25,118 nucleotides of DNA from a virus, in the IMG/VR virus record IMGVR_UViG_3300022848_000063, positions 1 through 25,118 of that record. One strand, 5' to 3'. The position numbers were made by a program, and so were the translations under genes. Under the pieces are notes generated by a model. The model did not search any database, was not told where the DNA came from, and saw only the letters and a program-made list of their open reading frames with translations. Shown in pieces: positions 9,521 through 22,329 of this stretch (positions within the stretch are counted from its first letter, which is position 1; the number at the start of each line of letters is the position of its first letter).

Positions 9521-10171
9521 TTATTTAAGTTTTTTTTCTTCTATTTCATAAAAGAAATTATCAGTATCTTCTGTTTTCCAAGCTCCTATATCTTCTACAT
9601 TCCATTCATTTGTTTGTACTTTCCAATCTGGAATATTATCTTTTACAGTAAATGAAGGTAAATCCCATATACATCTATTATTAGGTTGTGCTGCATAGTT
9701 GCCATCATCTAAAGCAATAATATGTGCGCACTTATGTTCATGTGGAATTTCAGAGTGATCAGTATCTAATATGTTACTTTCAGGGTGAGCCCAATCAATA
9801 GTAAATAAATATTTTCCATGATGCCACTTTTTATCTTTACCAATATACTTTCCTGAAGCTGCATTTAAAATAGACCAGCTAGTAACAGTAGGATAATAAC
9901 TAAAAGAATTCCAAAGCTCAAGTTCATCAAGTCGTCTGATTGGTACTTCTTCTGCTTTAAAGCCGCGTTGAATAAATGCACTAATAGGCAAGCGATAAAA
10001 TATTGCACCGTTCTCCATAAGAGCATGCCATAGTATTGCACGCCCACCCAGGCTGGATATACCAAAGATAATACAGTCTTCAACTTCGCCGTGATGTTTT
10101 TTACAGTCATATAAATATTCCCTTTTTATTTGTGCATATGTTGCTGGTATGTTTGCATTAAGATATGACAA
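9521..10171 (-). CDS. Conserved phage protein, Trp-rich, unknown function
   Basis: A 216-aa protein, soluble, rich in Trp, Tyr, His and Asp. Landmarks are YLYDCKKHHGEVEDCIIFG at residues about 20-38, IFYRLPISAFIQRGF, the block LWNSFSYYPTVTSW, and KCAHIIALDDGNYAAQPNNR near residue 157. I believe related proteins occur in other phages near structural genes, with no assigned activity. There is no signal peptide or membrane helix. The start MSYLNANIPATYAQIKREYL is the only good ATG. It could be an internal or tail-associated virion protein, or a host-interaction protein. Confidence 0.6.
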   Translation of the reverse strand: MSYLNANIPATYAQIKREYLYDCKKHHGEVEDCIIFGISSLGGRAILWHALMENGAIFYRLPISAFIQRGFKAEEVPIRRLDELELWNSFSYYPTVTSWSILNAASGKYIGKDKKWHHGKYLFTIDWAHPESNILDTDHSEIPHEHKCAHIIALDDGNYAAQPNNRCIWDLPSFTVKDNIPDWKVQTNEWNVEDIGAWKTEDTDNFFYEIEEKKLK

Positions 10172-11523: not shown

Positions 11524-11733
11524 TTAAGCTTTTAATTTTTTAATTGTTGCTTGATTGTCTTTAGCATAAGAATTAGTACCAGCTTCTTTAGATGGTTTAG
11601 GCTTAGGCTTTACTTTATCAATAACAGGAGATTGTAAATAAGCTGAATCATCTTTATTAGAGGGTTTAAATATTTCTTTAATTTTTTTTATAACTATATC
11701 TTTATGTTTTAAAGGACCTGATTCTATACCCAT
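11524..11733 (-). CDS. Small Lys-rich protein, possible paralogue of neighbour
   Basis: A 69-aa basic protein with the C-terminal segment NSYAKDNQATIKKLKA. The upstream neighbour (11736-11930) ends NSDFNADNKAFISKIKRG. The shared N-S-x-x-x-x-D-N-x-A-x-I-x-K-x-K pattern suggests related C-terminal modules. Otherwise no family is recognised. The rest is Pro/Lys-rich and probably unstructured. Confidence 0.5.
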   Translation of the reverse strand: MGIESGPLKHKDIVIKKIKEIFKPSNKDDSAYLQSPVIDKVKPKPKPSKEAGTNSYAKDNQATIKKLKA

Positions 11734-11735
11734 AA

Positions 11736-11930
11736 TTAACCTCTTTTAATTTTAGAAATAAAAGCTTTGTTATCTGCATTAAAATCAGAGTTGCCTTTTA
11801 CTTTGTCTTGAATAGTTTTAGCAGCAGATGGATCTTGTTTTGGTGGATGTGCTTCAGGTCCGAAACCAGCGGCAGCTCCACTTGAATTATACTGAACAGG
11901 TGTTCTAGTAGTCATTTTTGTTTTAGTCAT
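11736..11930 (-). CDS. Small Pro/Lys-rich protein
   Basis: A 64-aa protein beginning MTKTKMTTRTPVQYNSSGAA, with GFGPEAHPPKQDPSAAKTIQ and the C-terminal module shared with the next gene. It is likely disordered with one short C-terminal helix. It overlaps the end of the preceding gene by one base. No function is assigned. Confidence 0.5.
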   Translation of the reverse strand: MTKTKMTTRTPVQYNSSGAAAGFGPEAHPPKQDPSAAKTIQDKVKGNSDFNADNKAFISKIKRG

Positions 11931-14991: not shown

Positions 14992-15066
14992 TAAACTTAA
15001 TACGTTTTTTAAATCGCTTAGATTATTAGAGTAAGAAAAATTTTAGAGAAAAAAAGAATAAAAAAA

Positions 15067-15096
15067 AAGCGTCTATTAAATTAATAATAGACGCTT
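15067..15096 (-). terminator. Perfect intrinsic terminator of the island
   Basis: A 12-bp perfect stem (AAGCGTCTATTA with TAATAGACGCTT), a 6-nt loop, and in minus sense an immediate run of eight T (15061-15068). It starts 16 nt after the stop of the 126-aa gene. Its GC pairs are made only of GC, CG, GT and AC steps, so it obeys the island's rule. This is the most convincing terminator in the window. Confidence 0.88.
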
Positions 15097-15112
15097 AATT
15101 CTTTTAGTTAGA

Positions 15113-15493
15113 TTATAACGCTAATATTTTAGCTTCGAAGTATTTATTTAATTCGATAATCTCGTTAGATACTTTATTAGTTTTAAAAAAGATTTTATTA
15201 GAATTAGTAATATCTAATAATTCGTTTTTTAATTCTTTAGTTAAATAACTAGCTTTATCGATTATTAAATTAGCTTTTTTAAATCTTTTATTAGCTAAAG
15301 TATCGTAATCGATATCGATTTTTCTATAATCGTTATTAAACGCTTCTAGAATAGTAGTACTAAATTTAGCGTTCTCGTAAATATCGAACGATTTAGTATT
15401 ATTTCTTTTAGTATTAAATAAACGATATAATACTTTCGTATCTAAATCTTCTCGAAACGATAACGCTACTTTATTTTCTATTATTTTTTTCAT
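15113..15493 (-). CDS. 126-aa protein with 13-letter amino-acid alphabet, function unknown
   Basis: Starts MKKIIENKVALSFREDLDTK and ends NKYFEAKILAL. It contains no Gly, Pro, Trp, Cys, His or Gln, and Met only at position 1, exactly the residues whose codons need CA, TG, CC or GG. It is basic, soluble and predicted mostly helical with polar stretches (TKRNNTKSFDIYENAKFSTT). No family is recognised. TAA stop; no Shine-Dalgarno is possible, but AAGAAAG lies 12 nt before the ATG. It has its own promoter/hairpin leader and terminator. Conserved open frame despite the constraint implies selection. It could be the effector partner of the adjacent ribbon-helix-helix-like protein. Confidence 0.75.
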   Translation of the reverse strand: MKKIIENKVALSFREDLDTKVLYRLFNTKRNNTKSFDIYENAKFSTTILEAFNNDYRKIDIDYDTLANKRFKKANLIIDKASYLTKELKNELLDITNSNKIFFKTNKVSNEIIELNKYFEAKILAL

Positions 15494-15615
15494 CTTTTAT
15501 TCTCGCTTTCTTTTATTCTTTTAAAAACTCTTTTATTAATTAAAAGATTAATTTTTAAAAGATAATTATATTAAATACTATTTTTTAATTAAAGTAAATA
15601 GATAAAATTAAAATA
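15494..15615 (-). promoter_or_regulatory. Island leader 1: promoter plus 5' hairpin
   Basis: A 37-bp segment (15579-15615) is identical to 15911-15947. In minus sense it carries TTTACT (15598-15593), then 17 bp, then TTTAAT (15575-15570), a plausible sigma-70-like pair without TG or CA. Seven nt after the -10 begins an inverted repeat, TCTTTTAAAAA (15562-15552) with TTTTTAAAAGA (15527-15517), 24-nt loop, with a smaller nested palindrome. The layout is repeated in leader 2, so it is likely functional; the RNA would start with a hairpin. Confidence 0.65.
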
Positions 15616-15645
15616 ATTTATCTAGTTTAGAATAATTATAAACTA

Positions 15646-15828
15646 TTATTCTTCTATATTTTTAATAATTAAATCTAATAATTTAGATTTTTTTAAGTTA
15701 TTTTTAAAAGCTATTTTATCTAATTTAATATAACTTTCTTTAGATATATTTAGATTATAATATTTTCTAGTATAATCGTTAATAGTAGTATTTTTTAATT
15801 CTACTAAAAATTTTTCGTTTATTTTCAT
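15646..15828 (-). CDS. 60-aa ribbon-helix-helix-like protein, Gly-free
   Basis: Residues about 24-59 read YNLNISKESYIKLDKIAF then KNNLKKSKLLDLIIKNIEE, the spacing of a CopG/Arc-type ribbon-helix-helix domain: a short strand, helix A (ESYIKLDKIAF), a turn, and helix B (KSKLLDLIIKNI). The turn normally has Gly-x-Ser/Thr; here it is NNLKKS, consistent with the island's lack of Gly. Such proteins dimerise and bind short DNA repeats, often autoregulating. The repeated leader is the obvious candidate operator. The protein uses the same 13 residues as its neighbour. AAGAAAG is 10 nt before the ATG. DNA binding is inferred. Confidence 0.65.
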   Translation of the reverse strand: MKINEKFLVELKNTTINDYTRKYYNLNISKESYIKLDKIAFKNNLKKSKLLDLIIKNIEE

Positions 15829-15947
15829 CTTATTTCTTCTTTCTTATTTCTTTTAAAAACTCTCTTAATTATAAAAGATTTTATTTTTAAAAGATAATAG
15901 AATTATCTATTATTTTTTAATTAAAGTAAATAGATAAAATTAAAATA
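15829..15947 (-). promoter_or_regulatory. Island leader 2: promoter plus 5' hairpin
   Basis: Second copy of the leader. The 37-bp identical segment is 15911-15947. In minus sense it has TTTACT (15930-15925), 17 bp, GATAAT (15907-15902), then 7 nt, then TCTTTTAAAAA (15894-15884) pairing with TTTTTAAAAGA (15859-15849) across a 24-nt loop. Distances match leader 1 exactly. An extra AGATAAT/ATTATCT inverted repeat overlaps the -10. The 37-bp segment overlaps the end of the 24-aa gene. Confidence 0.65.
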
Positions 15948-16014
15948 TAATATAACTATAAATAAATAATAATAATAGAGTAAATAATAATTTTCTAAAA
16001 TAGTATATAAGCAT
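15940..16014 (-). CDS. 24-aa membrane peptide of the island
   Basis: ATG 16014-16012 is the third and last TG/CA in the island, which itself argues that this start is used. The peptide begins MLIYYFRKLLFTLLLLFI and ends YSYIIF: a short aromatic N-end, a basic RK pair, then a membrane span. It has the same length as the peptide at 22188-22262 and shares M1, L2, F6, R7, K8, F11, L15, Y19 and I22 with it. Trp4 and Met13 of the other copy are Tyr and Leu here, as the rule demands. AAGAAAG lies 9 nt upstream. It could be a toxin-like, holin-like or membrane-anchor peptide. Confidence 0.6.
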   Translation of the reverse strand: MLIYYFRKLLFTLLLLFIYSYIIF

Positions 16015-16110
16015 AATTTCTAACTTTCTTTTTAATTAATAAAATTAATTAATAATTTATTTTAAAAAAAAAAAAACGTTTTAATTCTTATTTTTAAATT
16101 TTAACGTACG

Positions 16111-16308
16111 GAATTGTTTAGAGCTTTTTCTAACAATTTTTTTATTATATTCTTGATCCTCGTTGCTCAATCTTGCGCCCTTGATCCACACTGATCCACT
16201 AGGCTCAAGCACACTTCAACAAGCCTCTTGACACAAGCAACTAGCATCAAGCCACACTTCAACAAGGCCGGCGGCGGCGTGTTATTGTATGTTGCGGATT
16301 ATATTATA
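16111..16308 (-). repeat. GC-richer direct-repeat region after terS, candidate packaging site
   Basis: Between the island and terS there is no convincing gene. Positions 16199-16225 and 16241-16269 are near-identical direct repeats (minus-sense core CTTGTTGAAGTGTG followed by CTTGA and ending CTAG), 42 bp apart. TGATCC occurs at 16154, 16182 and 16192, and GGCCGGCGGCGGCG at 16266-16279 is the most GC-rich run of the window. TGTATGTTG also occurs twice (16286, 16314). Location next to terS and unusual composition fit a pac/cos or structured RNA element. A 26-codon frame inside is considered incidental. Confidence 0.5.
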
Positions 16309-16758
16309 TTACTGTATGTTGTGTTCTTCTTCTATCTTGTCTAAGTATGTTTTCATCTCATCATCGTTCATCGCATCAAGTGTACTATGTTGTACTTCTT
16401 TCTTCTCAATCAAAAACCCTAACAACTGAGATTTTAATCTTATCGCATTGACCGCTGCAGAGTATTGTTTCTTGGCACAAGCATCTTTGTACACAACGTC
16501 AAGCTTAGCGACCTCTTGTGACACACTTTCTGATGTCAAGCGTCTAGCATCAACCCTTAATCTATCGATGAACTGGATAATCTTATCTTTCTTTAAGTTT
16601 CTGGCAGCTTGTACATGAGCAGAAGTTTCAGAGTAACCTGCGTCAACAGCACTGGTTCTTTTACCTTTTCCTTGTGCTATACCCTCACAAAACTTCCTTT
16701 CCATTGAGGTTAAGGTTGCTTCGTTAGTCTGATGGAGTTGGTCTATAGTTATCGCCAT
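16309..16758 (-). CDS. terS: Terminase small subunit
   Basis: A 149-aa protein with LTSMERKFCEGIAQGKGKRTSAVDAGYSE (shown in two parts here: LTSMERKFCEGIAQG and GKRTSAVDAGYSE) at residues about 16-46, a helix-turn-helix of the Terminase_2/terS type in which A-x-x-AGYS is the recognition-helix signature. A coiled-coil oligomerisation region follows (SESVSQEVAKLDVVYKDACA), then an acidic tail. It recognises the packaging start and recruits TerL. Separation from terL by the island and a glycosyltransferase is unusual. ATG 16758 has AGGAT upstream. Confidence 0.85.
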   Translation of the reverse strand: MAITIDQLHQTNEATLTSMERKFCEGIAQGKGKRTSAVDAGYSETSAHVQAARNLKKDKIIQFIDRLRVDARRLTSESVSQEVAKLDVVYKDACAKKQYSAAVNAIRLKSQLLGFLIEKKEVQHSTLDAMNDDEMKTYLDKIEEEHNIQ

Positions 16759-21432: not shown

Positions 21433-21795
21433 TTACTTTTTAAGAGTAAATGTTGCTTTCTCAGATTTGCCAGCTCTGCCGACTTCATCTATAACTTCTA
21501 CAGCAACAAAACCTCTTTCTCTATCCCAATCAAGGTCGATTGTTTTACCACCAGCTGCTAAAAAATCTCTAATCTTCATAGCGTTATTATAAAGATTAAA
21601 TCTTTTCCAGCCACCGCAGCCTTCTCTTTTAGGGTTTTTATCTACACAAACCTGAATTCGAGAATCCTTATCATATTTATAAGTTCCCTTGTAGTCTTTT
21701 GGATCCATAGCTTTAACTTTAGCTTTTGGTTTAACTACCTCAGATTTTGTCTTTTCAGTTACTTTAGGCTTTACAGCCAGATTTATAGTACTCAT
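21433..21795 (-). CDS. Small basic phage protein, unknown function
   Basis: A 120-aa protein: residues 1-35 are Lys/Pro/Val-rich and disordered (VKPKVTEKTKSEVVKPKAKV), followed by a folded part RIQVCVDKNPKREGCGGWKR, FNLYNNAMKIRDFLAAGGKT and LDWDRERGFVAVEVIDEVGR. Lys-tail plus globular domain suggests a nucleic-acid-associated protein. No family is named. It has the TTGTTT/TATAAA promoter upstream and stands directly beside the TATTGG repeat region. Confidence 0.55.
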   Translation of the reverse strand: MSTINLAVKPKVTEKTKSEVVKPKAKVKAMDPKDYKGTYKYDKDSRIQVCVDKNPKREGCGGWKRFNLYNNAMKIRDFLAAGGKTIDLDWDRERGFVAVEVIDEVGRAGKSEKATFTLKK

Positions 21796-21833
21796 ATTCT
21801 ACCTTTCTAGTTAGTTATTATTAATTATTTTAC

Positions 21834-21862
21834 TTTATATATATTAAAATTTAATTAAACAA
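21834..21862 (-). promoter_or_regulatory. Promoter at 21.8 kb
   Basis: Minus sense TTGTTT (21862-21857), 17 bp, TATAAA (21839-21834), with an AAAGG site before ATG 21795. It is the first promoter downstream of the TATTGG repeat region. Confidence 0.6.
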
Positions 21863-21973
21863 TAAAATAAAACAACAAAGAAAACTAAAGTTCCTTTCTA
21901 CTATACGATATTATAAATAAATAAAAATAAAAACAGAAAAAAGTCCTCACGGCAGCCTCGGGATAGAAGTAAA

Positions 21974-22118
21974 GGTATTGGCACTATCTGTCACACCCCC
22001 TACTAGAATCCTTTGATACCAATACAAGGTATTGGCGGTATTGGCACTAGAGAAGTGCCAATACCAGTATTATCCTTTAGTACCAATGATAATAGTCTAA
22101 AAGTATTGGTATTGGCTT
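21974..22118. repeat. TATTGG iteron-like cluster with 12-bp hairpin
   Basis: GGTATTGGCACT occurs at 21974-21985 and 22037-22048, GGTATTGGC at 22028-22036 (tandem with the latter), and TACCAATAC, TACCAATG and a double GTATTGG-TATTGG at 22017, 22081 and 22103-22116. A perfect 12-bp inverted repeat with a 5-nt loop spans 22037-22065. The region between genes is 21796-22187. Such direct and inverted repeats fit a replication origin, operator cluster or attachment site. No gene is seen here apart from the flanking ones; a 15-T run ends near 22153. Confidence 0.6.
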
Positions 22119-22187
22119 CAAAAAGATTTTAGAAAATATTTTTTTTTTTTTTTGAAATCCACTATAGTAAGAATGGCAAGTAACTTT

Positions 22188-22262
22188 TTATATAGTAATA
22201 ATCAAATATAAAATTATTAAAAACATTATAAACACTGCTTTCCTGAAAAACCATAATAACAT
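22188..22262 (-). CDS. 24-aa membrane peptide, homologue of island peptide
   Basis: Starts MLLWFFRKAVFIMFLIIL and ends YLIITI. AAGGGA lies 8-9 nt upstream. Length, the F-R-K at residues 6-8, F11, L15, Y19 and I22 agree with the island peptide at 15940-16014, but this copy uses Trp, Met, Val and Ala. It has normal base composition, including TGG and AGG codons. Relationship is suggestive; short hydrophobic peptides can converge. Confidence 0.5.
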   Translation of the reverse strand: MLLWFFRKAVFIMFLIILYLIITI

Positions 22263-22329
22263 TGTAATATCCCTTAAATTAGTTAAAAACTCTTTATATA
22301 TTAGATTAATTAATTGAGAACAAGTATAA

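Follow-up and report, generated by a model that had tools for sequence, protein, structure and literature searches.

A conserved once-per-genome array of short direct and inverted words in uncultivated aquatic phages, possibly an iteron-type replication origin

The IMG/VR fragment IMGVR_UViG_3300022848_000063, a 25,118-bp piece of an uncultivated aquatic phage that was analysed over its full length (hereafter the window), contains a dense cluster of the word TATTGG and its complement CCAATA, and the question raised by this locus is what function such a cluster could serve. Genes of the window include those for a large terminase (phrog_38), an SU10-like portal (PF23899) and a pyrimidine-dimer glycosylase-like protein (PF03013), and the closest matches of its large terminase (TerL) among annotated phages include the pelagiphages HTVC027P and HTVC023P, at about 43–44% identity. 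The cluster lies in the gap between listed ORFs at 21796–22329, and the genes adjoining this gap are on the minus strand. The first-pass annotation had described the gap as free of genes, which is correct for the listed ORFs, but a 24-codon ORF (22188–22262) is located inside it.

Exact copies of TATTGG or CCAATA are found at positions 21976, 22019, 22030, 22039, 22058, 22104 and 22110, so that 7 of the 17 copies in the window fall within 140 bp (21976–22115). The total number of copies in the window is ordinary (17, compared to a shuffle mean of 15), and only their clustering is unusual. The densest 145-bp stretch holds seven exact copies, whereas the densest such stretch in each of 300 dinucleotide shuffles held one to three, which bears out the earlier count of at least seven within 145 bp. 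When all 6-mers with at least two G/C were considered, the window maximum was 7, reached by TATTGG/CCAATA, versus 5 or fewer in 60 shuffles. The tandem words and the perfect 12-bp hairpin reported at first pass were both located as well, the former as two tandem word pairs at 22103–22116 and 22028–22045 and the latter at 22037–22065, with arms at 22037–22048 and 22054–22065 and a 5-nt loop.

Comparison with relatives showed that the conserved element extends beyond the 21974–22118 interval originally marked and spans about 21898–22170. Of the 51 distinct elements of the main group (group A), 33 were aligned (alignment A2, from which the window is absent), the exclusions being 11 long elements and 7 judged to be close to retained ones. 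The element is a single-copy unit of about 150–270 bp that reads on the minus strand and is bounded by TACTATA/TATAGTA flanks. Its order on that strand is a TTACTATA flank, an A/T-rich tract, the direct words D1-D2, a stretch of about 46 bp, the inverted word GGTATTGG, a spacer, the direct word D3 (CCAATACC), D4, the block CCCGAGGCTGC and a TATAGTA flank. The features of the window, in the order in which the minus strand reads them, are as follows.

22188–22262, minus strand: 24-codon ORF inside the gap, upstream of the element.
22161–22170, minus strand: left flank TTACTATAGT (TTACTATATAGG in relatives), inverted relative to the right flank.
22117–22153, minus strand: A/T-rich tract adjoining the first words, a candidate DNA unwinding element by the duplex stability of 40-mers.
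22103–22116, minus strand: direct words D1-D2, GCCAATACCAATAC, 6 bp apart; invariant in 33 of 33 aligned relatives.
22080–22088, minus strand: half-word region CATTGGTAC, with ATACCAAT at this place in most relatives, so the orientation in the window differs.
22057–22065, minus strand: inverted word GGTATTGGC, forming the left hairpin arm, which in full spans 22054–22065; core GTATTG invariant in 33 of 33.
22037–22045, minus strand: direct word D3, GCCAATACC, forming the right hairpin arm, which in full spans 22037–22048, read from the sequence.
22028–22036, minus strand: direct word D4, GCCAATACC, 9 bp after D3; CCAATA invariant in 33 of 33.
21974–22027, minus strand: extra partial module TGTATTGGTAT ... 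ATTCTAG ... AGTGCCAATACC, missing from most relatives.
21952–21962, minus strand: conserved closing block CCCGAGGCTGC; CCCGAG and TGC invariant in 33 of 33.
21898–21906, minus strand: right flank GTATAGTAG (TATATAGTA in relatives), from comparison with relatives.
21433–21795, minus strand: 120-aa basic protein, candidate binder, directly downstream of the element and closely linked to it.
16309–16758, minus strand: terminase small subunit (TerS; phrog_641, E 4.7e-12), syntenic and downstream of the element.

The inverted word and D3, which together form the hairpin, are 21 bp apart from start to start and are separated by a spacer of 13 bp (14 bp in some relatives), with D4 following 9 bp past D3. 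In most relatives, an ACCAAT half-word is located within the stretch of about 46 bp between D2 and the inverted word. Among the 51 distinct elements of group A, 11 are comparably long to that of the window. In groups A, B and C, a tiny hydrophobic ORF of some 20–25 codons may lie to one side of the element or to the other, as seen in the window (22188–22262, minus strand) and in relatives L060 and L275–L279, the translations of the relatives having been judged by eye.

Viral relatives were recovered through the protein encoded by the downstream gene (21433–21795), which yielded 80 loci, 74 of them usable; in the remaining six (L024, L034, L062, L066, L071 and L076) the contig starts too near the gene. 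The repeats are kept in these related phages. The array was present with near-constant spacing in 66 of the 74 usable loci, and the other eight consisted of one array cut by a contig end (L069), one locus that is too short (L042) and six in which the word has changed (L075 and L077–L081). D1 precedes the gene for the 120-aa protein by a distance that varies from about 177 to 480 bp, so the element stands as a unit in its own right, as opposed to a leader with a fixed position relative to the start codon. A search with the core pattern alone returned 70 viral contigs, comprising 67 with the whole element, two in which it is cut by a contig end, and L360, which matched by chance. The element was thus present in 69 of the 70, in one copy per contig, and a motif of the downstream gene lay within 900 bp in 65. 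The 17 matches to the core pattern in bacterial genomes, none of which was accompanied by the rest of the element, were taken as chance. No viral contig besides the window had an exact match to the perfect 12-bp hairpin, because the relatives pair only over the 8–9 bp word. With the element DNA as query, all matches in phage records were short and weak (11 records, with a best E of 0.06), a megablast search with 10 kb found nothing, and no description of this element was found in the literature searched. By these sequence comparisons, the array is conserved, occurs once per genome and has no convincing match in the annotated phage collection.

The words themselves differ between groups of relatives. 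The GSCAATACC of the main group becomes GGCAATCC or GTAATCCC in distant relatives, in direct and inverted copies alike. Group B, which comprises 12 loci among 23 matches (the other 11 were unrelated hairpins and were dropped), follows the pattern GGCAATCCC-TAATCCC ... GGGATTAC ... GTAATCCC-TCTAATC, followed mostly by CCCGAGGCT or CCCGAGACC; L284 and L293 of this group were omitted from the alignment, their first word being GTAATCCC and not GGCAATCCC. Group C (6 loci) follows the pattern GGCAATCCC-TAATCC ... GGGATTAG ... GGCAATCCA-GGCAATCCA. Both groups retain the geometry of two direct words, an inverted/direct pair and a 9-bp tandem. The identity of TerS to that of the window is 68–95% in group A records, 51% in two of group B and 43% in two of group C, and that of the 120-aa protein is 56–66% in five group B loci and 56–57% in six group C loci. 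A joint change of the word across all copies fits sites that follow a changing binding protein.

The hairpin could also belong to a structured noncoding RNA made from the minus strand. A 231-nt region folds better than its shuffles (z −4.3), but so, to the same degree, does the opposite strand (z −4.4), as any inverted repeat would. The consensus fold of the 33 group A elements consists of the 7-bp word dyad only, with none of its seven pairs compensatory, and the eighth and ninth hairpin pairs still pair in 28 and 29 of the 33. Within group A, the words are invariant while the loop and the stem-proximal bases vary, and the direct words outside the hairpin are conserved as strongly as the paired ones; in Rfam, no family matched at its gathering score. 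The joint word change among groups A, B and C would also preserve pairing. Since compensatory changes are absent from the main group and the words change jointly, a protein-binding DNA array fits these data better than an RNA, which we consider very improbable. The element is very likely a protein-binding, cis-acting DNA site, as judged from its pattern of conservation.

As to what such a site would do, the best single function that can be proposed is that of a putative iteron-type replication origin, a reading that we favour tentatively. A sequence-specific phage protein would bind cooperatively to the GSCAATACC words in their tandem and inverted copies. Two helical turns of DNA correspond to 21 bp, so that the spacing of the inverted/direct pair would place the bound protomers on the same side of the helix. 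The occupied array may then strain or open the adjoining A/T-rich tract, and the opened tract would let the phage helicase, primase and PolA begin DNA synthesis. Multiple copies of one word are present at a single locus per genome, as in an iteron-type origin. In G001, G002 and G014, the A/T-rich tract is among the 0.3–1.2% least stable positions (40-mers), and it is weaker in the window, where 6.5% of positions are as unstable, and in G012 (about 6%). Among the genes of relative G014 are those for an AEP primase, a UvrD-like helicase, a cytosine methylase and PolA, with an SNF2-type helicase on the opposite strand, and its primase, helicases and PolA make a self-run start of replication plausible. 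The proposal of an origin with iterons made at first pass agrees with the anatomy and conservation of the element, but gains no support from strand composition, a change in which would support an origin without defining it. The GC skew tracks gene orientation and shows no change at the element, and the skew at fourfold sites does not change there either; in the longer relatives (pieces of 48–64 kb), almost all genes are on one strand.

No initiator was recognisable among the proteins scanned, and the upstream gene gave a weak and partial DnaA-like PHROG match (E 0.0077). The best-linked candidate for the binder would be the adjacent 120-aa basic protein, which is highly conserved, with 43 invariant columns over 16 members. 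It matched nothing in Pfam or the PDB and nothing in phage records by tblastn, and gave one insignificant PHROG match; none of 67 candidate stretches in bacterial genomes encodes a relative. An AlphaFold2 model built with 16 relatives had a mean pLDDT of 47. A more far-reaching proposal, which we regard as improbable, is that the element and the 120-aa protein form a new initiator–origin (or recognition) pair, in which a family without a detectable Pfam, PDB or phage-record relative would read the array and in which the word would have been replaced at least once, and probably twice, while the geometry remained fixed.

The same array could instead be an operator or enhancer hub, at which a phage regulator bound to the words would control the downstream block of small genes and the TACTATA/TATAGTA flanks would be parts of promoters. 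The element does head a co-oriented small-gene block, and in groups B and C its right flank lies directly upstream of a small ORF. The first-pass annotation had placed it ahead of a promoter series for small genes, but since the adjoining genes are on the minus strand, the genes that it precedes are the leftward ones, from 21795 downwards. Promoter-like matches to the left of the element are somewhat more numerous than in shuffles (11, compared to a mean of 6.2 and an s.d. of 2.7), although they are not evidence of promoters. Against an operator, the distance to the next gene is highly variable, with extra sequence or a tiny ORF intervening in some relatives, and no regulator was found among the proteins scanned. 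In G001, the flank TACTATATAG is confined to the element, with one copy per side; the remaining records checked have diverged flanks, with shorter versions present at other places too. The full flank motif was absent elsewhere in the genomes checked, which argues against a general phage promoter, and a search for a T7-like RNA polymerase that could use the flanks as phage promoters gave no match in a search that also failed to detect its control. We consider a regulatory role of this kind doubtful.

Packaging, in which the terminase small subunit would bind the words as a pac or cos site, is in our view unlikely. TerS is encoded downstream in 20 of 20 relatives searched, sets of direct repeats occur in the pac site of SPP1 (PMC4737164), and the cultured phage HTVC023P has an array of TAGGAAA words directly upstream of TerS. 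However, TerS lies 1.5–5.2 kb away in the relatives measured and not adjacent to the element, as it would be for a pac or cos site, and the DNA-binding domain of SF6 TerS is reported to have little specificity for pac repeats (PMC4737164). Nor was a fixed terminus seen, since among 52 whole contigs of the 70 matches and three downstream values from long contigs no two ends fell together within the core of the element or close by, a comparison in which IMG/VR selection biases the ends; short contigs seem to have been kept when they reach terminase genes. An attachment site (attP), as had also been suggested, would be in keeping with a noncoding gap that holds repeats in both orientations, but tyrosine and serine recombinases (PF00589 and PF00239) were unmatched in 7 of 7 records, which are fragments, with positive controls, and the window has no tRNA. 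With no integrase found in these fragments, we regard this function as extremely unlikely.

Known systems offer partial parallels to the putative origin. In ori-lambda and RK2 oriV, several copies of a short word lie beside an A/T-rich tract at one place in the genome (PMC7466680, PMC4980987), and the element resembles the lambdoid-phage and iteron-plasmid origins in this respect. It differs from them in that its words are 8–9 bp long and mix direct and inverted orientations, in that it occupies a noncoding gap instead of the initiator gene, and in that its initiator is only a candidate. In the PLE satellite, whose host phage is ICP1, the origin consists of noncoding repeats with inverted sub-repeats (PMC7145576); the PLE repeat is bound by a RepA_N protein, whereas no RepA_N protein was identified for the present element. 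The pac sites of SPP1 and SF6 likewise gather sets of direct repeats in one region, but they span the start of the TerS gene (PMC4737164), whereas the element is kilobases from TerS. HTVC023P, a distant relative by TerL (43% identity), also has a short-word array in a noncoding region; its word is unrelated and, unlike the element, its array adjoins TerS, the layouts having been compared only roughly. That array (11681–11771; L202:3682–3772) has five copies of TAGGAAA in 90 bp, in the noncoding gap directly upstream of TerS.

If the element is an origin, its word and geometry would provide a sequence handle for origins in a widespread group of uncultivated aquatic phages, and its groups would constitute a natural word-switch series for studying the joint change of a DNA-binding protein and its multiple sites.

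Several minor observations were made in the course of the analysis. The long contigs G014 and G013 (52 and 38 kb) stop 129 and 388 bp, respectively, past the core on its downstream side, and among 55 downstream ends no others lie less than 1.7 kb away. At 9521–10171 (minus strand), the window strongly matches phrog_3704, annotated as a ferredoxin (E 5e-72), in a phage genome. Positions 15000–16150 of the window form a compositional island with a GC content of about 0.17, which contains two intact minus-strand ORFs (15113–15493 and 15646–15828); tblastn of the larger island protein against phage records gave no match. In the 15001–15600 part of the island, CA/TG was observed once compared to 47 expected, with CC at 0 and GG at 1, and over 15113–16150 CpG is 4-fold above expectation.
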